A stretch of 36,691 bases of DNA from Clostridia bacterium (GTDB taxonomy: Bacteria > Bacillota > Clostridia > Oscillospirales > RGIG8002). The stretch is from the NCBI GenBank assembly GCA_017616855.1, contig JAFZXI010000079.1:1-36691 (forward strand), read 5' to 3'. Below are positions 180-19,813 of the stretch, in pieces. Within the stretch, counting starts at the first letter, position 1; the number at the start of each line of letters is the position of its first letter. The notes under the pieces were generated by a model that did no database searches, was not told where the DNA came from, and was given only the letters and a program-made list of their open reading frames with translations. The position numbers were made by a program, and so were the translations under genes.

Positions 180-597
180 CGCCTTGCCTCCCTCTGAGGA
201 GGGAGGTGGCGTCCGAGGCGAAGCCGAGGATGACGGAGGGAGAGATAACGGCGCCCTTCCTTATGTATAAGCGTTGTGCCGTAGACGAATGCTGAATTGA
301 CATCACGCCGTCTCCGACTCAACGTATCCGCAAACCGCAGTTCATCGTTATCTCTCCCTCAGTCTTGCCGTCGCATGCGGCTTCACCGCCGCTCCGTCAA
401 TCCAGCTCCCTCCTCAGAGGGAGCCAAGCCGCCCCTACGACAACCCTTCCGTCAAACGCTCCCTTCGGTCGCATTTGCCACCTCCCCTTGCACAGGGGAG
501 GCCCTCGCACTCCTCAGAGGGAGCCAAGCCCCGCAGACCTCAGCTCGTATGCTGCCTCGAAAACCCCTTTATTTTTTGTCCTTTTTCCACAAAAGAC

Positions 598-644
598 TTG
601 ACAGAATCGCAAATGAATTGTTATAATATATTCGTATATATACG
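598..644 (+). promoter_or_regulatory. Sigma-A type promoter with downstream palindrome (copy A)
   Basis: The -35 is TTGACA (598-603), the spacer is 18 nt and the -10 is TATAAT (622-627). Five bases later comes the perfect palindrome CGTATATATACG (633-644), which would cover the transcription start, followed by GGTGATAGTGT. Element order, spacing and much of the flanking sequence, including a T-rich tract and CACAAAA upstream of the -35, match the promoter at 7220-7266. The palindrome is a plausible operator; that role is inferred from its position and its conservation between the two promoters. Confidence 0.85.
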
Positions 645-1003
645 GGTGATAGTGTCCCTCGGTGTAAAATCGCGAAGCGGTAACCGAAGGGGCGCCAGGT
701 CCGTATTTTCGCCCCGTGAGGAGAAACCGGGCGAAACGTGGCTGATTGCCGACGAGGACAAAACGGATCGGCAAAAGCGATTTGGCCTATATTCAGGCAT
801 ATTGTCCTTATCGCCGATCAGCCAGGTATATGAATTATTTTATTTCCGTATAATTCGGAAAGAGGAGGAGGGATGTTCACAGTGACCGGACGGCTGCGGT
901 ACACCCAGCCGCGGCATGAAGTTCGTTCAAAAAACCTATGTTCATCACAGTTAAACCCAAAACCCGCGAAAAAATCATTTCAAGGAAAAGAGGAAGTAAC
1001 TAA
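645..1003 (+). promoter_or_regulatory. Long structured 5' leader of the 1966-aa secreted protein gene
   Basis: About 360 nt separate the promoter from the start at 1004. Visible structure includes a GGGGCG/CGCCCC hairpin (689-715), a long imperfect stem (740-761 with 802-823), a small TTCCG/CGGAA hairpin near 845-860, and a small ORF at 873-1007. I could not match it to a known riboswitch class. Confidence 0.5.
740..823 (+). ncRNA. Long imperfect stem-loop in the leader RNA
   Basis: The arms 740-761 and 802-823 are 22 nt each and pair at all but about five positions, with uninterrupted 7-bp blocks at both ends (GGCTGAT/ATCAGCC and AGGACAA/TTGTCCT). The 40-nt apical part carries GGCAAAAGCG. 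The arms enclose no open frame of note. Function unknown. Confidence 0.5.
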
Positions 1004-1007
1004 ATGA
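873..1007 (+). CDS. Candidate 44-aa leader peptide overlapping the next start codon
   Basis: ATG at 873 follows the strong Shine-Dalgarno tract AGAGGAGGAGGG (861-872). The frame runs 44 codons and its TGA (1005-1007) overlaps the ATG (1004-1006) of the 1966-aa gene, an ATGA arrangement typical of translational coupling. The product is short and basic (starts MFTVTGRLRYTQ, ends KEEVTK), with no signal peptide or membrane segment, and resembles no family I know. The other giant-protein operon has a similarly placed 40-codon ORF (7462-7584) of unrelated sequence. A regulatory, translation-dependent role is inferred; chance is possible because the composition is not strongly coding-like. Confidence 0.4.
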   Translation: MFTVTGRLRYTQPRHEVRSKNLCSSQLNPKPAKKSFQGKEEVTK

Positions 1008-4000
1008 AAAAAATACTTAGTTCACTGCTTGCTTTCGCGATGGTACTGGCGCTCTTCAGCGGAATAGTCATTTTTGAGGCGTCTGCTGTAGAAGTTTACA
1101 TGCACATACCGTTTGTTAACCAGTACACATTGGAGCAAGTGAGTCCGTATGTGAGCACGATGCTTTACAATTCCTATCTTGGCAGCGCTGACGCTAACGC
1201 TACCAACGTGTCTATCGCGAAGGATGCTCAGGGTAGACTCGTTTATACCGCTACGACTTCGAAGAATACCGGCGGTATGGTGGGAAGCACCGACAGCTAT
1301 CATCACATTATCTGGTCGACGGCTCAGACTGCCAGAAGCAGAAAGCAGACGAGCCTGATAGCCGGTATTGATCCTTTCGGCGACGCCGAGCTGTCGAATA
1401 AGACCAAGCTCGTTATTAAGTTCGGCTTCGATGATGCCGGCTACACGGCATGGGGCAAAAAATCTGCGTATTTCTATTTTGCCAGCAGCCAGACTGTAGC
1501 ATACGTCATCAAGAGCGGTGTCGGAGCGACCTACAGCGATTCCAAAAAAACCGCTACATTTACTTGCGATCTGACAAGTATGTCTTATAGCTCCTCCGGT
1601 AATACGGGTTCGGTCAAGTCTCTTGCCGATGCGTTCGACGGCGTTCTTGACTCGCTGATCATCGACCTCCGCTTCGGCAACGCTGCTGAACCGACTGAGG
1701 TCAAGTTCTGGATTGAAGACGTTTATCTTGTCGGTCCGGCCAACACGGTCAACCTTCACAAGGCCATCAGAGAGGCGAAGACTGCCGGTGTTGATCAGGC
1801 TCTGATTGATGAGGCTGAAGCGGTTTACAAAGACACTGCTTCCACTCAGACCCTCATCAACAACACCGTCGCCAAGCTCGAGGCAGCTATGGGAACCGCC
1901 GCGTATAATTATTATGCGCTGACCGGCTTTACCGCCACGACCCAGGCCGAACTCGATCTCCTCTCCGGCAACGTCGGTTATGTTGACGGCGCGATCTATA
2001 ACGCCGTTACCAGCAAGCTCGAGCTTACCGACAAGCCCGGCGAGATCAAACTCACCACTAACCCGGCTAATAATCAGAAATACAACCAGTCCATCGTCAC
2101 CTATAAGAAGGCTGACGGCTCGACGCTGGCCAGTAACCCTTGGGCTCCCGTTGACACGACCGTTGACCTTTCCACTTTGGACGGTATCCGCTTCAAGCTG
2201 ACCGATGCCGACGGCAAACCTGTCAGTTACTATGGCAATTACAGATTTGTTAACTCTGCAAAGGGTTGGGCGGATTATTGGATGTATCTGGGCAAACCGG
2301 ACATCGATGCTGATGGCTACAATGTGATTGACTTTGGCCGTGTAAGAAGAGTCAAGGGCAATTCTTATGACAATACGCAAGAACTCTTTGTCGATCAGCT
2401 TAAGACGATAAACGCGATTTCCTTCCTCATCTATTCAGCTGCTGACACTCTGTATTTCTCTGATATGCAGGCGTATAAGAGAAATGTTACCAGGGACTAT
2501 GGGATGGACATCCTTGACCTGCCCGGTTTCAGTGACTGGACTGCCGATAACATTACCGCTGCGAATGCTGTTGCGGCGATGGATGGCAATAACGCATATT
2601 CTGCGTTCGAGTTCTATGACAAGGCCTACTGCAACAGAGGCAACGCCGTTCACGGCCTGCTCCCGACCAAGGACTATAAGCCGAATAACTACACTCAGGC
2701 GTGGCATACGCGTTCGAGTACGGATAATGAAGCCGCTCAGCAGAACGGCGACGTCTTCGGCAGCATCAACACCGTCGCTGACTTCCTTAAGTATGACGGT
2801 ATCCGCGTAGGTATTGCTGCCACCGATGGCAGTGATCCGATTACCTATAGCTGGGATGGCAGCCACGTTGTTAACATTTCCTTCGCGCTCAGGGGTTCCG
2901 GCCAGCATACCTTTGACAACAAGTGGTATACTCCGTTTACCGCCCAGTACAGCACCGCGTCCGGCCAGCTTTTCCCCACTTATGAAGACGGTTACGTATA
3001 CTTCTACTTTAAGGATTTCAAGAGCTGGGGCGATTATGTCATGGAAGACTATGATCCCAGCAAGCTCAATCAGGCGTACGGCAACTTCGTTATGACCTAC
3101 GTTGCCGGTGGTTGTAACACCGAGTGGAAGCGCCTCGTCGTCTCCGATATGCAGCTGTTCAGAAAGCATATCGACGATCCGACCGAGGGTCTCTGGGAGT
3201 ACAACTACACGGCTGAGAGCTGGAAGGCGCTGACTGACGCTTATGAAGCGCGCGACGAAGAAGCGATCGCTGCCGCGAAGGCCGCGCTGAAGCCCGCCGT
3301 GACCATGGCTGTCACCGAGGACTTCTTCAAGGGCTGGACCACCGAGGACGTCAACGCTGTCGTTACTACGAACAGCACCAAGCTCTGCGATTCCATCGGC
3401 GACGGTCTGAACACCCAGAACGTCTGGAACGGCGGCGACTTCTCCAACAACACCACCTTCGCGATGGAGAACGGCGCGTTCACCATGACCGCGACTGCCG
3501 ACTTCACCGGCAAGTCCATGGGCTGGAAGAACATGGACCGCAGCGGCACCCTTAACACCGGTAAGGTCAGCACCGGAGACGCCGGCCGTGACTATCCGTA
3601 CATGGCTGCCAACGTCAAGGGTCTCTCCGAGGCCGACGGTATCCGCTTCAAGCTGAACGTCAGCGATAGCGGTTCCTTCGAGAGACTGCTCATCGGTCTC
3701 TCCAACTGCGACGACTTCGTCCGCGAGCAGTACGCTCTCAAGCTTACCAAGGATAACTTCGACGCCGACGGATATATCAATATCCCGTTCAGCGCGTTCG
3801 AGAAGGCCTGGTGGTGCTCCGCGTTCACGCAGGCCGAACTCGAGCAGGTTCTCGTATTCATCGTTGAGGCATACGGCGTGACCAACGGAACGAAGATCTC
3901 CATCTCCGACCTCCACGGCTACACTGTCGCCACGAAGGAAAAGATCATCGGCGATCTGTGGCAGTATAACTACACCGCCGAGAGCTGGGCTCCGCTTGCC

Positions 4001-6904
4001 GCCGCTGCCGAGGCGCTCGATCTCGATGCCGCCGCCGCTGCGAAGGCCGCGCTCGTCCCGGTCAAGACCGCTCGCGTCACCGGCAACCTGATGGAAGGCT
4101 GGACGACCGCCAACGTCAACGCCACCGTTACCGCGAACAGCGGCAAACTGTGCGACTCCATCGGCGAAGGCCTGAACATCAACAACGCTTGGAACGCTGG
4201 CGACTTCTCCAACAACACCACCTTTGAGGCGGACAGCAACCTGTCCCTGACCGCGACTGCCGACTTTACCGGCAAGGCGATGGGCTGGAAGAACATGGAC
4301 CGCAGCAAGACCCTCCAGAACGTCACCAACGGCGCGTTCCCGGCTCTTAACGTTGCCGGGCTGAAGGATGCTGAAGGTATCCGCTTCAAGCTCGAATCCA
4401 ACAAGCCCATTGAGAGAATCCTTATAGGTCTCTCCACCTGCGCCGAACCCTCTCCGTTCGCTACCGGCGGACACAGAGAGATGTACGCGATGAAGATTAA
4501 GCCCGAAAACGTTGGCGCGGATGGTTACATCAACATTCCGTGGAGCTATTTCGAGGCGGCCTTCTGGTCTCAGAAGTTCGCTCAGGATGAACTCGATCAG
4601 ACAATCGTCTTCATCATTGAAGCTTACGGCGCCGAGAACGGCACGAAGCTCACCATCTCCGACCTCCACGGCTATATCACCCGCGACTTCGACGACAGCG
4701 ACCTTGCTAACGTCTGGGAGTACAACTACACGCCCGAGAGCTACAAGGCCTACAGTGACGCTATCCGCGTCGCGAAGACCGCTGCCGAGCGCGATGCCGC
4801 GTTTGCGCTTCTCGTTCCCGCGAACGTCAAGACCGTTACCGAGGACTTCTTCAAGGGCTGGACCACCGAGGACGTAAACGCTGTCGTTAACACTAACAAC
4901 GGCAGACTCTGCGATTCCATCGGCGACGGACTGAACACCAACGGCAAATGGAACGGCGGCGACTTCTCCAAGAACACCACCTTCGCGATGGAGAACGGCG
5001 CGTTCACCATGACCGCGACTGCCGACTTCACCGGCAAAGCGATGGGTTGGAAGAACATGGATCGCAGCGGTACCCTCAACACCAATAAGGTCAGCACCGG
5101 CGACGCCGGCCGTGACTATCCGTTCATGGCTGCCAACGTCAAGGGACTTTCCAAGGCCGAAGGTATCCGCTTCAAGCTCGAATCCAACAAGCCCGTCGAG
5201 AGAATCCTCATCGGTCTCTCCAACTGCGACGATTTCGTCCGCGAGCAGTACGCTCTCAAGATCAAGCCCGAATACGTTGCTGCTGACGGCTATATCAACG
5301 TCCCGTTCAGCTACTTCGAGAAGGCTTGGTGGTGCTCCGCGTTCTCGCAGGCCGAACTCGAGCAGGTCCTCGTATTCATCGTTGAAGCTTACGGCGCCGA
5401 AGAAGGCACCAAGATTGCCATTTCCGACGTCCGCGGCTACAAGACGATCGTTGCTCCGACCCAGGCCGAGATCGACGCTCTCAGCGCCGCTATCACGAAG
5501 CTCGAAGGATATGACTTCGACGCCAAGTACACCGACCTTATCGCCGACGCCAAGGCTCAGCTGACCGCCGTTGACGAGGATTACGTCCTCGACGCGACCG
5601 CCGCTGTCCTGGCTGTCACCGATAAGCTCGACGCTGCCGACCGTTCCGCTCTGAAGGCGAACATCGATGCCGTCAAGGCCATCGACGCGACCCTGTGGGC
5701 GACCGAGATCGCCGCGGGCGTTGACGCTTACTACAACCTCGACGCTGCTCAGTCCGATATCGACGCTGCTGCGAAGGTCCTCAAGAGAATCATCGACAAG
5801 CCCGAAACTCCGACCGTCACCGCGGCTTCCGTTACCGATACCACGATTGAGGTCGTTGCGATCCGCGGCGCCAAGTATAAGCTGAACGACGGCGAGTGGC
5901 AGGACAGCAATGTCTTCGAAAACCTGCTCCCGAACAAGGCTTACGCCATCAGCGCTTACATCGTTGAGACCGAGGACTTCATCGCTTCCGACGTTTCCGT
6001 CGCGGTTGAGATTACCACTGCGAAGGGCTCCTTCGGCACCGCTACCGTTACCCTCAGCGGCACCGAGAGATACAACGAAGTCCTGACCGCTACCGCGGCT
6101 GACGTTCCCGAGTATCTCGGTGAATACGCAATCGAGTGGCGCAACGCGGCGGGCGAGACCGTCGGCACCGGCGCGACCTACACCGTCGCTGCCGCCGACA
6201 TCGGCTCCTTCGTCTACGCGGTCCTCGTTTCCGCGAACGCGGGCGACACCGTCGCTTCCGATCCTACCGGAACCATCGGCAAGGGCGTCATCAAGGGCTA
6301 CACGCTGCCCACCGCTTCTGAGATTATGTATCCTCAGACGCTGGCTGACTCCGTCCTTTCCGGCGCCGATACCGGCATCGTGACCGGTACCTGGGCTTGG
6401 GTTGCTCCCACCACGCAGCCTCTCTCCACTCAGAGCGGCAGCGCGTTCGAAGTCACCTTCACCCCGGACGCCAACTTCATCGATCTCTATGAGATCATCA
6501 CGGCGAAGGTCACCGTCACCATCAATCCCGCGCCTTATGAGCCGCAGACCTTTGTCAGCACTCAGGACGACCTTACCGTTGAAGGCGAGTTTATGCAGAA
6601 CACCGAGATGAAGGTTGAAGAGATTGACTACAAGCAGCCCTCTTACCTGTCCCTGCTCCGTGCTTCCGCTAAGGACACCTCCGGTCTGAAGAAGCTCATA
6701 CTCTTCAAGGATATCTCCTTCACCGTCAATGGCGAAGAGCTCGATGACATGTATGAAGGCAAGCTGACCGTTAAATCCTTCGTCGGATTGAACCGCGCCG
6801 GCCAGACCTACAGCGTATGGTTCTTCGTTGACGGCGCGTCTGTCAACTACGTCGGAACCGTTGACGCCAACGGCATACTGGTTGTCGAGGACGTTATCCT
6901 GTAA
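1004..6904 (+). CDS. Giant secreted modular repeat protein (1966 aa)
   Basis: The N-terminus is a clear signal peptide (MKKILSSLLAFAMVLALFSG, hydrophobic to about residue 25, then ASA), so the protein is exported. Five or six copies follow of a beta-rich module of about 200 aa, recognisable by DGIRFKL, ADGYINIPFS and a closing ISDLHGY/FSDMQAY-like strand; this resembles carbohydrate-binding beta-sandwiches, but no family is certain. Short helical segments separate the modules (e.g. near residue 248). Residues about 731-1481 are three tandem units of about 252 aa. A helical FIVAR-like stretch follows (about 1484-1596), then Fn3/Ig-like segments (about 1600-1845) and a C-terminal domain ending VVEDVIL. 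No LPXTG, SLH, dockerin or terminal membrane helix is seen. The start is fixed by AAGAGGAAG upstream and by the signal peptide. Likely a surface or matrix protein; substrate unknown. Confidence 0.85.
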   Translation: MKKILSSLLAFAMVLALFSGIVIFEASAVEVYMHIPFVNQYTLEQVSPYVSTMLYNSYLGSADANATNVSIAKDAQGRLVYTATTSKNTGGMVGSTDSYHHIIWSTAQTARSRKQTSLIAGIDPFGDAELSNKTKLVIKFGFDDAGYTAWGKKSAYFYFASSQTVAYVIKSGVGATYSDSKKTATFTCDLTSMSYSSSGNTGSVKSLADAFDGVLDSLIIDLRFGNAAEPTEVKFWIEDVYLVGPANTVNLHKAIREAKTAGVDQALIDEAEAVYKDTASTQTLINNTVAKLEAAMGTAAYNYYALTGFTATTQAELDLLSGNVGYVDGAIYNAVTSKLELTDKPGEIKLTTNPANNQKYNQSIVTYKKADGSTLASNPWAPVDTTVDLSTLDGIRFKLTDADGKPVSYYGNYRFVNSAKGWADYWMYLGKPDIDADGYNVIDFGRVRRVKGNSYDNTQELFVDQLKTINAISFLIYSAADTLYFSDMQAYKRNVTRDYGMDILDLPGFSDWTADNITAANAVAAMDGNNAYSAFEFYDKAYCNRGNAVHGLLPTKDYKPNNYTQAWHTRSSTDNEAAQQNGDVFGSINTVADFLKYDGIRVGIAATDGSDPITYSWDGSHVVNISFALRGSGQHTFDNKWYTPFTAQYSTASGQLFPTYEDGYVYFYFKDFKSWGDYVMEDYDPSKLNQAYGNFVMTYVAGGCNTEWKRLVVSDMQLFRKHIDDPTEGLWEYNYTAESWKALTDAYEARDEEAIAAAKAALKPAVTMAVTEDFFKGWTTEDVNAVVTTNSTKLCDSIGDGLNTQNVWNGGDFSNNTTFAMENGAFTMTATADFTGKSMGWKNMDRSGTLNTGKVSTGDAGRDYPYMAANVKGLSEADGIRFKLNVSDSGSFERLLIGLSNCDDFVREQYALKLTKDNFDADGYINIPFSAFEKAWWCSAFTQAELEQVLVFIVEAYGVTNGTKISISDLHGYTVATKEKIIGDLWQYNYTAESWAPLAAAAEALDLDAAAAAKAALVPVKTARVTGNLMEGWTTANVNATVTANSGKLCDSIGEGLNINNAWNAGDFSNNTTFEADSNLSLTATADFTGKAMGWKNMDRSKTLQNVTNGAFPALNVAGLKDAEGIRFKLESNKPIERILIGLSTCAEPSPFATGGHREMYAMKIKPENVGADGYINIPWSYFEAAFWSQKFAQDELDQTIVFIIEAYGAENGTKLTISDLHGYITRDFDDSDLANVWEYNYTPESYKAYSDAIRVAKTAAERDAAFALLVPANVKTVTEDFFKGWTTEDVNAVVNTNNGRLCDSIGDGLNTNGKWNGGDFSKNTTFAMENGAFTMTATADFTGKAMGWKNMDRSGTLNTNKVSTGDAGRDYPFMAANVKGLSKAEGIRFKLESNKPVERILIGLSNCDDFVREQYALKIKPEYVAADGYINVPFSYFEKAWWCSAFSQAELEQVLVFIVEAYGAEEGTKIAISDVRGYKTIVAPTQAEIDALSAAITKLEGYDFDAKYTDLIADAKAQLTAVDEDYVLDATAAVLAVTDKLDAADRSALKANIDAVKAIDATLWATEIAAGVDAYYNLDAAQSDIDAAAKVLKRIIDKPETPTVTAASVTDTTIEVVAIRGAKYKLNDGEWQDSNVFENLLPNKAYAISAYIVETEDFIASDVSVAVEITTAKGSFGTATVTLSGTERYNEVLTATAADVPEYLGEYAIEWRNAAGETVGTGATYTVAAADIGSFVYAVLVSANAGDTVASDPTGTIGKGVIKGYTLPTASEIMYPQTLADSVLSGADTGIVTGTWAWVAPTTQPLSTQSGSAFEVTFTPDANFIDLYEIITAKVTVTINPAPYEPQTFVSTQDDLTVEGEFMQNTEMKVEEIDYKQPSYLSLLRASAKDTSGLKKLILFKDISFTVNGEELDDMYEGKLTVKSFVGLNRAGQTYSVWFFVDGASVNYVGTVDANGILVVEDVIL
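3190..5450 (+). repeat. Three tandem ~756-nt coding repeats
   Basis: The units begin at the conserved W(E/Q)YNYT(A/P)ES motif at about 3193, 3960 and 4716. Units 1 and 3 share long near-identical DNA, such as the stretches around 3316-3352 and 4838-4874. Unit 3 resembles unit 2 instead at about 5161-5220 (RFKLESNKP segment; compare 4376-4435), so it is a mosaic. Confidence 0.85.
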
Positions 6905-6999
6905 GGGAAAACGCTTTGACCTCGGGAAAGGACCTCCGGTCCGTCCCGAAAGATGCGGAAAGCGCGAGCTGACCGCGAAAGGTAAATAATACCGCTGAA

Positions 7000-7031
7000 C
7001 GCGGAGCCGATTCTGTCGGCTCCGCGTTTTT
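7000..7031 (+). terminator. Intrinsic terminator after the 1966-aa gene
   Basis: A perfect 11-bp stem CGCGGAGCCGA / TCGGCTCCGCG with loop TTCTG is followed directly by TTTTT. It lies 96 nt after the stop codon. From here to about 7190 I see no gene or clear element. Confidence 0.9.
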
Positions 7032-7219
7032 GCGTGTGCGCGCTCACGTTGCGCGCGCGGGGGAGAGCGCTTTTTCAGATAAGTCTTCATAATAAATAAT
7101 ATATAGAGCATTCGCTGCGGCAGGTGAACCGAAGAGACGCCGGTGCTTCCTTAACTATATGGCGGTGTTGTGAATATCACAAAATCATCAGATTTTTTTG
7201 CGCTTTTTTCACAAAACCC

Positions 7220-7266
7220 TTGACAAAATCATTGTCTAATTGCTATAATACAATCGTATATATACG
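7220..7266 (+). promoter_or_regulatory. Sigma-A type promoter with downstream palindrome (copy B)
   Basis: TTGACA (7220-7225), an 18-nt spacer and TATAAT (7244-7249) are followed after 5 nt by the palindrome CGTATATATACG (7255-7266) and then GGTGATAGTGT. It is the paralogue of the promoter at 598-644 with identical spacings, and similarity extends upstream into TTTTTTCACAAAA. Conservation fades soon after +20. Confidence 0.85.
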
Positions 7267-7586
7267 GGTGATAGTGTTTCCGGGTGGGAAAGCGTCCCGA
7301 AGCGCTCGCTTTGCGTACTCCGAATAATCGCAAAGTTTGCGCCTTCCGGAAGGACAAGCGTATACCGTTCCGCGTATTATCCGCGGCGCGTTCGCCCGTT
7401 GAAAAAAGAGAGACGCTATTTTATCAGATCGGAACTTGCGATCGAAAAGAGGAGTGAAAGAATGGAAGCATCTTTCGTCAAACCATCGGTTATCTTACCT
7501 GTGTTGAGCATGATTACGGCTCCGCCGGCGTCATGCGCAAAGTCGGGTTTTGATTACACAACAACTAACGGAAAGGAGCACTAACG
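7267..7586 (+). promoter_or_regulatory. Long 5' leader of the 1335-aa secreted protein gene
   Basis: About 320 nt of leader contain several small palindromes, among them CGCAAAGTTTGCG and CCTTCCGGAAGG near 7329-7360, and then a small ORF (7462-7584). Apart from the first 20 nt after the palindrome it shows little primary sequence similarity to the leader at 645-1003. No known riboswitch class recognised. Confidence 0.45.
7462..7584 (+). CDS. Candidate 40-aa leader peptide ending 2 nt before the next start
   Basis: ATG at 7462 is preceded by AGAGGAGTGAAAG, a good ribosome binding site. The frame has 40 codons, and its TAA (7582-7584) stops 2 nt before the TTG start of the 1335-aa gene. The SD of that gene (GAAAGGAG, 7571-7578) therefore lies inside the small ORF. 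The product (MEASFVKPSVILP..., ending NGKEH) matches no family known to me. A longer version from TTG 7399 is possible but has no good SD. The arrangement parallels the ORF at 873-1007. Function is inferred from position only. Confidence 0.4.
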   Translation: MEASFVKPSVILPVLSMITAPPASCAKSGFDYTTTNGKEH

Positions 7587-10500
7587 TTGAAGAATTCGAA
7601 CACCAAAAAAGTATTGACTTCAATACTGTCTTCATGCTTAGTTGTTATGCTCCTGCTCAGCACCCTGGTGATTGCACCCGTTTCGCTTACCGCGAGCGCC
7701 GCTGGGCAGTACGGTATAACCATCAACCACATTTTCAATGACGGCCCCGAAGCTGCCAACTCCTATGATGAGCTTTACGGCTCTTTTGATGCCGGCGAGA
7801 CTCCGGTCGTCACGATCAACGCGCCAAACGGCTACGTGATAGACTCGGTCTATTTCACGACGGCTGCAGGCACGGATTTTGTCCAGTACGTTGAGAATCT
7901 GCAGTATGATAATCCCGTCAAGGGCGTGTATCATATCACGATGCCCGCGTACGATCTGACGATGAACGTAATCTATCGCTGCATTCTCAACAGCGCGATA
8001 GTTGAGCACGTTTACGACGGCGGACATTACGACGATCAGGACTACGACGTTGACCTCGGCGATAATCTGTGCGAAGGTGACACCGTTATTTTCAGCTCCG
8101 ACGTCAAGCAGGGTTATACTCTGAGTGAGATATACGTCATGGGCTACACCGGCAGTTCCTTCATCACTATACTTGACAACGTCGCGATTACCGATTACGG
8201 CACCGGCACCTACTCCATTGAGATGCCTGATTCTCCCGTAATCATCGTCTTCGTCTACACCAGCAACAGACACAGCATAACTCCTCTCGCGCTGCTTGAC
8301 GGACAGGATGGCGTCGGCGCCGACTACTATGACGGCCCCGCCACTGCCGATCCCGGCGAAACGGTCGTGTTCCACGTTGCCGACGTTGCCGATTACTCCG
8401 AGCCCGAAGTTTTCGTTACCGCTCAGGCCGGCGTCGACTTCGTTGAGGTCCTTCCGCTTGAAGGCGAAGAAGGCACTTACTACTTCGTGATGCCTAACGC
8501 GGAAGTCACCGTCCACATGCTTTACACCAACACGAGATTCAACATTACCGTTGAGAACGTTTTCGAGGACGGCACCGTTGACGATACGGTTTACTATGTC
8601 GGCGACGCCACCGCCTGCGAAGGCCAGCGCGTTTACTTCACGGTTGACGCTCCCGACGGCTACGCTGTTTCCGAAATCTACGGAACCTTCGCCGCGGGCG
8701 CCAGCTTCGTCGAGGTATTCCCGGTCGATTCTATCGCCGGCGCGTACTACTTCGATATGCCCGAAGGCCCGGTAACGCTGAGCATCGTCTATGCCGACAC
8801 TCTGTTTGACATCGTGGCCGAAAACGTTTTCGAGGACGGCACCGTTGACAATACCGCTTATTATTCCGGCGCGGCTGAAGCTTATGTCGGCGATCGCGTT
8901 TACTTCACCGTGAACGCTCCCGAGGGCTACGCCGTTAAGGAGGTCTTCGGAACCTTCACCGCGGGCACCAGCTTCGTGGAAGTGGTTCAGGTCGATTCTC
9001 TCGCCGGCGCGTATTACTTCGATATGCCCGAAGGCCCGGTAACGCTGAGCATCGTCTTCACCTCGACGCTGTTTGACGTCAACTTCGTTTCCTATATGGG
9101 CACTGCTGTCGATCAGGAGTGGAAAGAAGAGGACGTTGCCGCCGGTTCCGATTATATCTTCTCGGTTCAGGCGCCTGACGGTTGCGCGATTGACGAAGTA
9201 TTTGCGATGTCCAACCTCGGCGGCACTTTCGTGGAACTGATCCCCGTCCGTGATCTCGGCAACGGTGTGTTCTCCTTTGAAATGCCCGCTGCCGACGTCG
9301 ACGTCGTGATCATGTATAAGTCCACGCTGTTCGACGTCAACTACACTTCCTATGACGGCGACGCCGTCGTCAATGAGTGGACTGACACCGGTATCGAAGC
9401 CGGCGACAAGCACATCTTCACGGTTGCGGCTCCCGACGGATACGTTGTTGAAGACGTCATCGCCACCACCGCGGTGAACGGACTCTTCATCGAGATCCTG
9501 AACGTTGAGAACCTTGCCGGCGCTTACTACTTCGTGATGCCGGAAGCCGACGTTGACGTTACCGTCGTTCTCAAGAAGGTTATCTTCAATGTTACGGTTA
9601 ATGACGTTTTCGACGGTCAGATAGTCGAAATCGCTGACGGCGTTGCTTACGCCAACGAACTCAACCTCTTTGTTGTTGAGAATCCGACCGGATATGAGAC
9701 CGGCTACGATTATTACAGCATCACCGTTCAGAGTGCCAGCGATCCTTCCGTTATTTATGATTACACTCACGTAAGCGGCGACGTTTTCAGCATGATGATG
9801 CCTGAGGACGACGTGGTCATCACTGTCCAGTGGAAGAGCATTCTCCACTCTGTGACCGTTTCCAGCGTCGACCAGTACGGCAACCTTATTGAAGAGTTTT
9901 CTCTCGATGATGTGCCCGAAGGCGAAACCGTTATTACTCCTATCGCGCTTTCCGCTGTTAACGAAGAAGATTACGAATACGTCGAATACTTCGCGGTCGT
10001 GGAAGTTGCTCCTTTCCATGAAATGCTTACGGTTGATGACGTAGCCGGAAAGACCATTGTCTTCGATATGCCTGACGGAAACGTCAATATCACGCTCGTT
10101 TGGCAGAAGGTCGCCTTCACCGTTACCGAACAGTACATCGAGAACGAAACCGAAGTCATCGACTCCCTGACCTCCGTCTGGGACGTCAAGGGCGGCGACA
10201 ACTGGATTTCCATAGCCACGGTTCCCGAAGGATACGAGATTTCCGAAGTCTACGTTACCGCTATTGACGGCGTCTTCGCCGAGTTCGTCGATTACATCTA
10301 TCTGAACGATACCACGATTTACTTTGAGATTCCTTACGGCGACGTCTTCGTCGATTACTACCTCGAGAAGATTGTCAATACCGTAAACTACTACGCTTAC
10401 GTTGACGGCGAGCTCACCCTCGTGAAAGCCGAAGAAGTCGTCTATGGCGAAAAGGCTGCCTGGGGCGCTGATAATGCCGCCGACGACCTGCCCGACGGCC

Positions 10501-11594
10501 ACGCGTTCATCGCCTGGTACCTCGGCGGAGAAGCGTATGACTTCGATTCCGAAGTCAAGGGCGATCTCAACCTGATTGCGGTTTATGAATTCGTTAACTA
10601 CAACGTGACCTTCAACACCGACGGCGGCAGCGAAGTTCCCGCTCAGGTCGTCATCAAGAACGGCAAGGCAGTTAAGCCCGCCGCTCCCGAGAAGGAGGGC
10701 TACGACTTCGCGGGTTGGAAGCTGAACGACGCCGAATACGACTTTGACACCGCTGTCACCGCCGATATCGAGCTGACTGCTTCCTGGACCGAGAAGACTT
10801 ACACCGTCAACGTCCCCACGGGCGAGGGCTATGAAGTCAAGATCGCCGACGGCTCCGACACGACCGTCAAGTACGGCGACAGCTTCAGCTTCACCGTCGA
10901 GTATGACGAAAACGTCAATACAGATGACGCGGTCGTATCCGCCAACGGCGTCGCGCTCGTTGCCGACGATCAGGGCGTTTACACCGTCGAGGACATCAAG
11001 TCCGACGTTTACATCAGCATCAGCGGCGTGGGCATGACCAAGCTCTTCACCGTTAAGTTCAACTACTACGAAGGCGATGAAGCCATCAGCGCGACCTTCA
11101 CGGTCGAAGCCGGCAAAGCCGCTGTCGCTCCCGTCGACACTGCCCGCTACGGCTACAAGTTCCTCGGCTGGTTCGACAACGCCGAGGGCACCGGCGAAGC
11201 CGTTACCGACTTCACGAACGTTAACGCCGACGCCGAATACTTCGCCGTTTACGAGCAGAACCCGCTCGCCGATTACACCTTCGGCGACAAGACCGTGACC
11301 GATTCCGCTTACGGCATCGGCTTCAAGGAAGTCAAGATCGAAGTCGTGAAGAACGACGCCGAGTATCTGGATCGTGACGTTTACGTCATCGCCGCCGCTC
11401 AGCTCAAGGACGGCTCCACCGTTCTCTTCTACGTCCCCGTTTACGTTGAAAAGGGCGAAGCCAAGGCCGACGTTTCCCTGATCCTCAACTCCAACACCTT
11501 CGTTTACGTTGATATGTATCTCGTATACGATGAAGTGGATCTCTCCGGTTCGCTGAACTATATCGATATCGAAGCCGGCATTCAGATTGCCTAA
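7587..11594 (+). CDS. Giant secreted protein with ten ~89-aa repeats and InlB-type repeats (1335 aa)
   Basis: It starts with TTG, supported by GAAAGGAG 8 nt upstream and by the signal peptide (hydrophobic about residues 10-33, ending ASAAG). Residues about 41-930 are ten consecutive repeats of about 89 aa. Each has an (A/E)G..V.F.V.AP.GY.V..V core and closes with YYF.MPEGPVTLSIVY-like strands, which suggests divergent InlB B-repeats (Flg_new-type). Repeats 4 and 5 are nearly identical in DNA around 8738-8790 and 9008-9060. Residues about 931-1225 contain more canonical InlB/Listeria-Bacteroides repeats (FNTDGG...GYDFAGWKL). A unique C-terminal domain follows, ending IEAGIQIA. No anchor motif is visible. 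It is very acidic. Probably an extended adhesin or matrix fibre; the ligand is unknown. It is co-transcribed with the next gene, 15 nt downstream. Confidence 0.85.
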   Translation: MKNSNTKKVLTSILSSCLVVMLLLSTLVIAPVSLTASAAGQYGITINHIFNDGPEAANSYDELYGSFDAGETPVVTINAPNGYVIDSVYFTTAAGTDFVQYVENLQYDNPVKGVYHITMPAYDLTMNVIYRCILNSAIVEHVYDGGHYDDQDYDVDLGDNLCEGDTVIFSSDVKQGYTLSEIYVMGYTGSSFITILDNVAITDYGTGTYSIEMPDSPVIIVFVYTSNRHSITPLALLDGQDGVGADYYDGPATADPGETVVFHVADVADYSEPEVFVTAQAGVDFVEVLPLEGEEGTYYFVMPNAEVTVHMLYTNTRFNITVENVFEDGTVDDTVYYVGDATACEGQRVYFTVDAPDGYAVSEIYGTFAAGASFVEVFPVDSIAGAYYFDMPEGPVTLSIVYADTLFDIVAENVFEDGTVDNTAYYSGAAEAYVGDRVYFTVNAPEGYAVKEVFGTFTAGTSFVEVVQVDSLAGAYYFDMPEGPVTLSIVFTSTLFDVNFVSYMGTAVDQEWKEEDVAAGSDYIFSVQAPDGCAIDEVFAMSNLGGTFVELIPVRDLGNGVFSFEMPAADVDVVIMYKSTLFDVNYTSYDGDAVVNEWTDTGIEAGDKHIFTVAAPDGYVVEDVIATTAVNGLFIEILNVENLAGAYYFVMPEADVDVTVVLKKVIFNVTVNDVFDGQIVEIADGVAYANELNLFVVENPTGYETGYDYYSITVQSASDPSVIYDYTHVSGDVFSMMMPEDDVVITVQWKSILHSVTVSSVDQYGNLIEEFSLDDVPEGETVITPIALSAVNEEDYEYVEYFAVVEVAPFHEMLTVDDVAGKTIVFDMPDGNVNITLVWQKVAFTVTEQYIENETEVIDSLTSVWDVKGGDNWISIATVPEGYEISEVYVTAIDGVFAEFVDYIYLNDTTIYFEIPYGDVFVDYYLEKIVNTVNYYAYVDGELTLVKAEEVVYGEKAAWGADNAADDLPDGHAFIAWYLGGEAYDFDSEVKGDLNLIAVYEFVNYNVTFNTDGGSEVPAQVVIKNGKAVKPAAPEKEGYDFAGWKLNDAEYDFDTAVTADIELTASWTEKTYTVNVPTGEGYEVKIADGSDTTVKYGDSFSFTVEYDENVNTDDAVVSANGVALVADDQGVYTVEDIKSDVYISISGVGMTKLFTVKFNYYEGDEAISATFTVEAGKAAVAPVDTARYGYKFLGWFDNAEGTGEAVTDFTNVNADAEYFAVYEQNPLADYTFGDKTVTDSAYGIGFKEVKIEVVKNDAEYLDRDVYVIAAAQLKDGSTVLFYVPVYVEKGEAKADVSLILNSNTFVYVDMYLVYDEVDLSGSLNYIDIEAGIQIA
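7707..10377 (+). repeat. Ten tandem coding repeats of about 267 nt
   Basis: Each unit ends with a variant of F.MP...V.V..(V/M)Y and starts with F(N/D)(I/V)-type residues. Units 4 and 5 (about 8539-9072) are the youngest pair by similarity; units 1-3 and 8-10 are more diverged. Confidence 0.8.
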
Positions 11595-11609: not shown

Positions 11610-13478
11610 ATGAAAATGAAAACAGGCAAAAGACTTGCCTCGTTCTTCCTCTCGGCGTGCATAGCGCTGTCGGTGCTTTTCGGCGCGGTGGTTTTCGCCT
11701 CTGCCGATACGATTCCGACCTCCGAATCCGTTTCGGAGCTCAATGCGATATACACCTACGTTGAGAACGAAGACGGGACCGGCACGATTGCCATTGACGC
11801 GAAGGCGCAGAACATCGAAGCCGAAGAGTACATTATGTTCAACGTCTATCAGAACGTCAATGACATTGCCGACCCCACGAACGAAAGGCAGAACGCCCCG
11901 GTCACTTCAAAGGGCTTCTACGCGGCTGACGTCCTGAACGGCGAAGCGCTCGCCAAAGAGCTGCCCCTTACTCCTCTCAAGCTCAACGGCAAATGCGTGC
12001 TCGGTGTTCAGGTCACCAACAGAGGCGAAAACAACGATTGGGTCTATACCTACATCACCACTGCGCTCAAGCTCAATCCCAACGGCGGCACGCTGAAGGG
12101 TGAGGGCGAGCTTCAGGTGAAACTCGGATTCAGCATCCTTGACGAGCTTGGAACCGAAGAGCGCGTTTCCAGAGATTACTACAAGTTTGTCGGCTGGTCC
12201 GAGACCGAAGACGGCGAAGTAATCGGCAACGATTTCCTGATGACTCAGTACGGCGACGAACTGTTCGCGATTTGGGAGCAGCTCACGACCACCGTCACCT
12301 TCGACCTTAACGGCGAAGAAGGCGAAGAAATCGGCCCGATGGAGATCACCGCCGGTGAACCCACCGACCTCCCCGTTCCCGAATCTTCCGATCCCGACAA
12401 GACGTTTGCCGGTTGGGGCACCAGCCCCGAAGGTCCCGTCGTTTATGACGGCACCGAGCCGGTAGTCCTCACGGGTGAGGACAGCGAGCTCCCGCTCTAC
12501 GCGATTTGGGAAACCGTTGAGAAGTACAATGTCACCTTCAACGCCAACGGCGGCAATGGCGAGATGGAACCTCAGCGAATTGAGGCGAACGTCGCTACGG
12601 CGCTTAACCACGTCGGTTTCACTCGTGAAAGATTCGAGTTCCAGGGTTGGGCGACCACCGCGGAAGGCGAAGTCGAGTACGGCGACCAGGCGGAGATCAC
12701 TCTGACTGATTCCGATATCGAACTCTTTGCGGTTTGGAAAGAGGTTTCCAATTACACCATCACCTTCATCGCTAACGGCGGCGAAGGCGAGATGGAGCCA
12801 CAGGTGGTTGAAGTCGGCGTCGCTACTGCGCTGAAGGCCAATGCCTTCACCCGCGACGGCTTTAAGTTCCAGGGTTGGGCGACCACCGTTAACGGCGAAG
12901 TCGAATACGCGAACAAGGCCGAAGTCACGCTGACCGATTCCAATCTTGATCTGTTTGCCGTTTGGAAGCAGAACACGATTGCCGTTATCTACAGCCCCAA
13001 CGGCGGCACCGGTCTTATGAATCCTCATAAGCTGACCGTCAACGAGACATTCAACCTCGATAAAGTCGCTTACACCTACACGGATAAGACCTTCATCGGC
13101 TGGTCCACCACCGCTGACGGCGAGGTCGAATACGAGGATGAAGCGGAGTTCACCATCGGCACGAAGAGCGTCGTTCTGTACGCCATCTGGAAAGACGGCG
13201 CGGAAGAGCCCGGCGAGCCCGAAGAACCTCCGGTCGATCCCGATCCGAATCCGAAAGCGATTCTGTTCAGCACCGGCGGCGGCAACGGGCTCATGACCCC
13301 CATCAAGGGTCTGAGCACCGGCCAGGTCGTTAAGCTTCCCGCTTGTGCCTATACCAAGGACGGCTATACCTTCGCGGGCTGGGCGACCACTTCCGGCGGA
13401 GCTGTCGTATATCAGGATTGCGCAGACTTCACCGTCGGCACCTCCAATGCAGTGCTTTACGCTGTTTGGGTTGCCTGA
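11610..13478 (+). CDS. Secreted InlB/Listeria-Bacteroides repeat protein (622 aa)
   Basis: ATG at 11610 follows GAGGAGG, and a signal peptide occupies about residues 1-32 (ends VVFASA). An N-terminal domain of about 120 aa has no recognised family. Six InlB B-type repeats of about 70-80 aa follow, each with the pattern F..NGG.GEM.P....F....F.GWATT..G.V.Y......L....LFAVW. A Pro/Glu-rich linker (EEPGEPEEPPVDPDPNPK) separates repeat 5 from the final repeat. The last residues (LYAVWVA) are the end of a repeat, so no sorting signal or membrane anchor follows. It lies 15 nt downstream of the 1335-aa gene in one operon and is closed by a strong terminator. The probable role is adhesion or binding at the cell surface. 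Confidence 0.85.
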   Translation: MKMKTGKRLASFFLSACIALSVLFGAVVFASADTIPTSESVSELNAIYTYVENEDGTGTIAIDAKAQNIEAEEYIMFNVYQNVNDIADPTNERQNAPVTSKGFYAADVLNGEALAKELPLTPLKLNGKCVLGVQVTNRGENNDWVYTYITTALKLNPNGGTLKGEGELQVKLGFSILDELGTEERVSRDYYKFVGWSETEDGEVIGNDFLMTQYGDELFAIWEQLTTTVTFDLNGEEGEEIGPMEITAGEPTDLPVPESSDPDKTFAGWGTSPEGPVVYDGTEPVVLTGEDSELPLYAIWETVEKYNVTFNANGGNGEMEPQRIEANVATALNHVGFTRERFEFQGWATTAEGEVEYGDQAEITLTDSDIELFAVWKEVSNYTITFIANGGEGEMEPQVVEVGVATALKANAFTRDGFKFQGWATTVNGEVEYANKAEVTLTDSNLDLFAVWKQNTIAVIYSPNGGTGLMNPHKLTVNETFNLDKVAYTYTDKTFIGWSTTADGEVEYEDEAEFTIGTKSVVLYAIWKDGAEEPGEPEEPPVDPDPNPKAILFSTGGGNGLMTPIKGLSTGQVVKLPACAYTKDGYTFAGWATTSGGAVVYQDCADFTVGTSNAVLYAVWVA

Positions 13479-18769: not shown

Positions 18770-19813
18770 ATGTCAACAGTAGTATCCATGAAGCAGCTTC
18801 TGGAAGCGGGCGTCCATTTCGGACATCAGACCAGACGCTGGAACCCCAAGATGGCGCAGTACATCTTCACCGAGAGAAACGGCATCTACATCATCGACCT
18901 TCAGAAGACCGTCAAGAAGATCGAAGAAGCTTACGATTTCGTCCGCGAGATCTCCGCTAACGGCGGCACCGTTCTCTTTGTCGGTACTAAGAAGCAGGCC
19001 CAGGATTCCATCAGGGAAGAGGCCGAAAGATCCGGCATGTATTACGTCAACGCCCGTTGGCTCGGCGGCATGATCACCAACTTCACGACCATCCGCCGCA
19101 GAGTAGACCGCCTTTCCAACTTGCGCAAGATGCAGGAGGACGGCACTTTCGATCTGCTCCCCAAGAAAGAAGTCATCAAGCTCAACCTTGAGATAGAGAA
19201 GCTCGAGAAGTTCCTCGGCGGCATCAAGGACATGAAGAAGCTGCCTTCCGCGCTCTTCATCGTCGACCCCCGCAAGGAACACATGGCGCTCGCCGAAGCG
19301 AAGAAGCTCGGCATTCCGGTTGTCGCGATCGTTGACACGAACTGCGATCCTGACGCCGTCGACTACGTCATTCCCGGCAACGACGACGCTATCAGAGCCG
19401 TCAAGCTCATCTCCGAGATAATCGGCAACGCCATCCTCGAGGGCAGACAGGGCACTTCCATGGCGGAAGCGACCGAAGAGGCCTCCGTTGCGCAGGGCGA
19501 AGCCAAGGAAGCCGTCCCCTTCGTGATGGCTGAAGAAGACAAGGTCAAGGTCGAGACCCCCAAGGCCGCGCCGAAGGCCGCCAAGACCGAGAAGCCCCTC
19601 ATGGCCGCGATAATCGGCGAAGAGACCACCCTGGTCGCCAAGGAAGCGAAGAAGCCCGCCGTCCGCCGCACCGTCAAGAAGGCGGAAGCCGTCGCTGAGG
19701 AACCCAAGGCCGAAGAAGTCAAGGCCGAAGAGCCCGCGAAGAAGCCCGTCCGCCGCACCACCAAGAAGGCGGAGCCCAAGGCCGAAGAGAAGGCCGAGGA
19801 AAAGGCCGAGTAA
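18770..19813 (+). CDS. rpsB: 30S ribosomal protein S2 with long Lys/Glu/Ala-rich C-terminal tail
   Basis: 347 aa, against about 230-260 for most S2 proteins. Residues 1 to about 225 are canonical: [27 protein letters not shown]-like [38 protein letters not shown] and VDTNCDPD. Residues from about 226 to 347 form a low-complexity tail alternating KKAEA, PKAEE, PVRR and KKPVRRT blocks, ending EEKAEEKAE. The start is fixed by AAGGAGGAAAAATT ATG and by the family N-terminus; the longer frame upstream crosses the promoter. Co-transcribed with tsf, the normal arrangement. Confidence 0.97.

Follow-up and report, generated by a model that had tools for sequence, protein, structure and literature searches.

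We analysed a 36,691-nucleotide (nt) stretch of a Clostridia bacterium genome (contig JAFZXI010000079.1, assembly GCA_017616855.1), hereafter the window, in which the same promoter cassette precedes each of two adjacent genes, gene 1 and gene 2, whose products are very large secreted proteins (Table 1). The proteins carry different repeats: tandem modules resembling carbohydrate-binding modules (CBMs) in gene 1, and Flg_new / List_Bact_rpt repeats in gene 2. We describe the two cassettes and their conservation within the genus, and weigh what the conserved element may do.

Two promoter cassettes with a palindrome at the expected start site

The cassettes, at 571–665 and 7192–7285, both read TTGACA-N18-TATAAT-N5-CGTATATATACG, followed by GGTGATAGTGT. 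Re-reading the sequence returned the same coordinates and spacings as those in the initial annotation of this locus. This pattern occurs twice in the window and was not found in 100 shuffles. Both promoters match the sigma-A (sigma-70) consensus at every position of the two hexamers, with an 18-nt spacer and a TG-extended −10, and there is no other promoter with a complete consensus between 400 and 8000. A perfect 12-bp palindrome was present in about 0.5% of composition-matched 39-nt shuffles, and because of this rarity the occurrence of an identical palindrome twice, at the matching position of the promoter, is not attributable to chance. Judging from the usual spacing, transcription is expected to start at G634 and G7256, one base into the palindrome, which would place the dyad at about −1 to +11. 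The in-register identity of the two copies falls to background by ~30 nt upstream of the −35 hexamer and by ~25 nt past the palindrome. A strong intrinsic terminator is predicted downstream of gene 1 and upstream of promoter 2, and the two genes are thus probably separate transcription units.

Table 1. Positions of the cassette elements, upstream open reading frames (ORFs) and genes in the window
Feature	Position	Strand	Remarks
UP-element-like T-rich tract and CACAAAA, 5′ of promoter 1	572–597	+	14/28 columns invariant over 7 copies
Promoter 1	598–627	+	TTGACA 598–603, 18-nt spacer, TATAAT 622–627, TG-extended; 12/12 consensus
Palindrome CGTATATATACG, copy 1	633–644	+	invariant in 7/7 genus copies
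Conserved initial transcript GGTGATAGTGT, copy 1	645–655	+	G001 and G003 have GGGTGGTAGTGT
Leader-1 upstream ORF	873–1007	+	44 amino acids (aa), after GAGGAGGAGG; stop overlaps the gene-1 ATG (ATGA)
Gene 1	1004–6904	+	1966 aa, secreted; tandem ~210-aa CBM-like modules; genus-restricted
Predicted intrinsic terminator, gene 1 / promoter 2 interval	6998–7036	+	−25.7 kcal/mol, z −6.5, then TTTTT
T-rich tract and TCACAAAA, 5′ of promoter 2	7194–7219	+	7-copy conservation comparison
Promoter 2	7220–7249	+	TTGACA 7220–7225, 18-nt spacer, TATAAT 7244–7249, TG-extended; 12/12 consensus
Palindrome CGTATATATACG, copy 2	7255–7266	+	invariant in 7/7 genus copies
Conserved initial transcript GGTGATAGTGT, copy 2	7267–7277	+	G001 has GGTATAGTGT
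Leader-2 upstream ORF	7462–7584	+	40 aa, ends within the gene-2 ribosome-binding region
Gene 2	7587–11594	+	1335 aa, secreted; Flg_new / List_Bact_rpt repeats; TTG start

Conservation and reach of the cassette

We compared seven cassettes from four species of one genus, G000 (the genome of the window) to G003. Copy 2 was available from all four species and copy 1 from three, as the G002 contig ends inside gene 1 and does not cover its copy 1. Wherever the contigs show the arrangement, gene 1 and gene 2 follow each other in this order, each behind its cassette. The palindrome (12/12 columns), the −35 hexamer (6/6) and the −10 hexamer (6/6) are invariant. Within the spacer, 4 out of 18 columns are invariant (ATTG, which holds the TG of the extended −10), and between the −10 hexamer and the palindrome 1 out of 5; the length of the spacer is fixed in all copies and that of the second stretch is always 5 nt. 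Half of the columns in the T-rich/CACAAAA stretch are invariant (Table 1), compared to 0 out of 37 in the flank further upstream. All seven copies have the exact 14-nt block CGTATATATACGGG in common, and the C at −1, which lies outside the predicted RNA, is invariant. The distance from the palindrome to the downstream TAGTGT shifts by 1 nt in either direction, which suggests that the palindrome is a unit of its own, locked to the promoter.

The pattern of divergence indicates that the similarity of the two cassettes is old and selected rather than the product of a fresh duplication or conversion. The gene-1 copies of G000 and G003 have a spacer identity of 0.50 and flanks at random identity, and the spacers of gene 1 and gene 2 are 0.44–0.56 identical. 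Gene-2 copies are 0.86–0.97 alike across species, compared to 0.77 for the gene-1 and gene-2 copies of the same genome. The initial annotation had proposed that selection holds the cassette itself, which agrees with an element that stayed unchanged in seven copies while its spacer and flanks turned over. It had also named two observations that would speak against this view, namely the same cassette before unrelated housekeeping genes and a recent duplication that includes neutral flanking DNA. None of our searches found the cassette before a housekeeping gene, and both flanks and spacer have diverged.

We assessed how far the palindrome extends beyond these two genes. The exact palindrome occurs at three sites in G000, comprising the two cassettes and one site inside a reading frame, and solely in cassettes in the relatives (two in G001, one in G002 and two in G003). 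We read 21 one-mismatch sites in G000, G002 and G003; open frames of >200 codons enclose 20 of them, and a 133-codon frame encloses the remaining one. Among the one-mismatch sites of G001, the reading covered the one in the nusB leader (TGTATATATACG), which was rejected as a further target because the other three species do not have it. A search for the −10 hexamer plus palindrome allowing three mismatches returned two further places only, both unconvincing. Gene-1 paralogues within the genus have different promoters from which the palindrome is absent.

Outside the genus, exact combinations of −10 hexamer and palindrome were about as frequent as the reversed control pattern, and most had other spacings. 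A wider regulon in the order, for which G022, G034, G082, G219, G235 and G302 have near matches, was rejected on this basis, and the near matches of G022 and G034, which we read in detail, do not have the rest of the cassette. The exact 24-mer was found neither in 84,980 species genomes (GTDB-220) nor in viral contigs, two collections from which near relatives of the window may be left out. The small regulon of surface proteins suggested by the initial annotation thus shrinks to two adjacent genes in one genus.

Transcript leaders, gene products and neighbouring loci

Measured from the expected starts, the leaders are 370 nt (gene 1) and 331 nt (gene 2) long, and each includes an upstream ORF preceded by a strong Shine-Dalgarno-like sequence. 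The peptide of the leader-1 ORF is not kept in G001 and is partly similar in G003. The leader-2 ORF is open in all four species (40–41 aa, with one in-frame 3-nt indel), and its ratio of nonsynonymous to synonymous polymorphism (pN/pS) is ~1. We therefore rejected a peptide function for it, and the constraint looks to act at the nucleotide level. This ORF includes nucleotide blocks that are fully identical in the four species, e.g., TCGGTTATCTTACCTG and GGGTTTTGATTACACAACAAC, which selection on the peptide does not explain. The TTG start of gene 2 is kept in all four species. By analogy with leaders of Gram-positive bacteria (PMC3997798), translational coupling or leader stabilisation is plausible.

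At the RNA level, the first 27 nt of the two transcripts fold no better than shuffled sequences (z-scores of +0.47 and +0.73), which favours recognition of the palindrome as DNA. Neither cassette RNA has a stable 5′ hairpin such as a 5′-terminal stem-loop mRNA stabiliser would need, no common fold was found across the RNAs of the cassette copies, and Rfam has no match in the window. Allowing at most one mismatch, the genome has only six additional sites for GGGTGATAGTGT, mostly within open frames, and no obvious antisense partner is among them.

Neither Pfam nor NCBIfam gave a match for gene 1. A structure model of its ~210-residue module (mean pLDDT of 82) has CBM11, CBM29 and CBM27 among the nearest solved folds, with TM-scores of 0.3–0.4 and nothing below an E value of 0.001; the modelled likeness to carbohydrate-binding modules is one of fold only. 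Pfam and NCBIfam gave just Flg_new-type repeats, in gene 2 and gene 3 (see below), and no S-layer or SLH domain. Both giant proteins start with signal-peptide-like stretches, as read by eye. A comparison of the two yielded only weak repetitive matches (best E value of 0.027), in line with the earlier observation that they are not homologous end to end. Full-length relatives of gene 1 were detected in 4 out of 197 genomes of the order, all in the genus of the window, and the same four genomes have the relatives of gene 2 that span most of its length. In the species genomes, gene 2 retrieved solely a distant repeat protein, encoded in a Clostridia metagenome-assembled genome from goat omasum. 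The codon adaptation of genes 1 and 2 is 0.54–0.55, compared to 0.39–0.48 for most non-ribosomal genes of the window, which is compatible with high expression when the genes are on.

Gene 3 (11610–13478), a further secreted Flg_new/List_Bact_rpt repeat protein, lies 15 nt past gene 2, with which it is probably co-transcribed, and is kept as its neighbour in G001, G002 and G003. Gene-1 paralogues form arrays elsewhere in the genus. At least four stand in a row at locus L060 (G003:C18:76000-95500), with one promoter each and near-alike signal-peptide starts, e.g., MKKILSSLLAFAMVLALFSG. A third class of promoter precedes gene-1 paralogues at L059 (reverse complement, ~3180–3450), with counterparts in L060 and L061. 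Downstream of it come a conserved tiny ORF, ATGAAGCACG(G/T)CTGA (MKHG-stop or MKHV-stop), just past AGGAGGA, and then two tandem hairpins with GGA in their loops. Control of these hairpins by CsrA was rejected because PF02599 was not found in G000, which is 97% complete. The intergenic repeat GGGGCGATTATCAATCGCC occurs at 85–103 and 161–179 of the window, whose contig starts in this repeat region, and similar stretches lie upstream of paralogues in L059 and L061. Ribosomal protein S2 (18770–19813) ends in a C-terminal tail of ~110 residues in which A, K and E are abundant.

A proposed operator at the start site and the alternatives

We tentatively favour the reading that the cassette is a DNA operator lying over +1 beneath a maximal sigma-A promoter. 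The A/T-rich upstream tract, the consensus −35 and the TG-extended consensus −10 would together form a maximal housekeeping promoter, and the short symmetrical operator would overlie the start site. A putative dimeric DNA-binding protein would recognise CGTATATATACG, occluding RNA polymerase or tuning its activity, and this single regulator, perhaps a repressor, could set both neighbouring surface-protein genes together despite the terminator and the separate long leaders. Operators usually have this anatomy, a perfect dyad that sits at the start site in a fixed relation to a maximal promoter, and this dyad-symmetric site has outlasted its flanks at a fixed promoter position, as expected of a repressor or activator site. 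The cassette shares the hexamers, the extended −10, the A/T-rich tract and a dyad that spans the start site at constant spacing with generic Firmicutes sigma-A promoters that have a +1-overlapping operator; it differs from them in that its dyad is a gapless 12-mer found at two genes per genome, with a cognate protein that is putative. We know of no described operator with the sequence of the palindrome, and a full-text literature search for GTATATATAC returned no title on a bacterial regulator of this site.

Several points weigh against an operator. The two cassettes per genome include no regulator gene, and in the four genomes the palindrome precedes no candidate regulator gene; signs of autoregulation, which repressors of their own genes would often show, are thus absent. 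The binding protein remains putative, and a gapless 12-bp site would make a short operator. The conservation is also one-sided, continuing into GG and then TAGTGT, an extension for which a symmetrical operator has no need.

This one-sided extension into the RNA suggests instead that the conserved unit might be the ~24 nt with which the transcript begins (GUAUAUAUACGGGUGAUAGUGU), acting as an RNA signal or as an initial-transcribed sequence. It could bind a protein, or set promoter escape or the 5′-end stability of the long-leader mRNAs. A promoter with every consensus element would be expected to be sensitive to the initial sequence. Predicted 5′ hairpins, of other sequence, stand at the start of other mRNAs of the gene-1 family in the genus (p4 and p5). 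A strong Shine-Dalgarno sequence and an occluded 5′ end both stabilise Bacillus leaders (PMC3997798). The 5′ stabilisers of long-lived Gram-positive mRNAs (ermC, aprE and the cry3A STAB-SD; PMC3997798) share with the cassette mRNAs a long leader and a strong upstream Shine-Dalgarno-like sequence, and with some gene-1 paralogues the predicted 5′ hairpin, but the cassette mRNAs do not have a stable hairpin at the 5′ end. Given this lack of structure and of Rfam matches, the variable spacing between the two conserved blocks, the invariant C upstream of the predicted RNA and the absence of an obvious antisense partner for GGGTGATAGTGT, we regard a role of the initial transcript as somewhat unlikely, although it is the leading alternative to an operator.

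It is improbable that no dedicated factor is involved and that the element is simply the best start region for a constitutive promoter of great strength, selected for high expression. Such a promoter would agree with the above-average codon adaptation of both genes and with the joint presence of all consensus elements. However, strength alone leaves the exact 14-nt block in seven copies unexplained, no other gene of the four genomes is preceded by the palindrome, and the promoters of the paralogues look different.

Neighbouring tandem genes and arrays of gene-1-type paralogues would suit a relic of an old duplication or gene conversion without shared function, but the divergence pattern already largely refutes this, making it very unlikely: flank and spacer similarity was lost over time with the palindrome still perfect, gene-1 spacers are no closer across species than those of gene 1 and gene 2 are to each other, and gene-2 copies resemble one another across species more than the gene-1 copy of their own genome, which argues against recent conversion. 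Least credible of all is a recombination site at which crossover between the two direct copies flanking gene 1 deletes or swaps that gene to vary the surface, as gene order does not change in the available contigs, no empty or inverted arrangement was seen and a scan of nine window proteins turned up no recombinase.

The setting resembles arrays of S-layer or major surface proteins in its very large secreted repeat proteins, tandem paralogues, long leaders and upstream ORF, and differs from them in that no S-layer domain was found and the gene-1 modules are CBM-like at fold level. The architecture of the cassette itself is familiar, and in this respect it is a clean case of ordinary gene control. 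We consider it unlikely that it represents a genus-specific start-site element for one adjacent surface-protein pair, either with a dedicated two-target regulator or as a new initial-transcript signal; if it does, the initial-transcript version would coordinate the synthesis of envelope proteins. For two large surface proteins of a little-known genus, the cassette provides a control element that is sharply delimited and testable, and its drifted spacer and flanks, set against the unchanged element, form a built-in comparison showing the bases that count. Should there be a dedicated two-target regulator, the pair would offer a simple system for studying the way in which a bacterium determines the composition of its outer coat.

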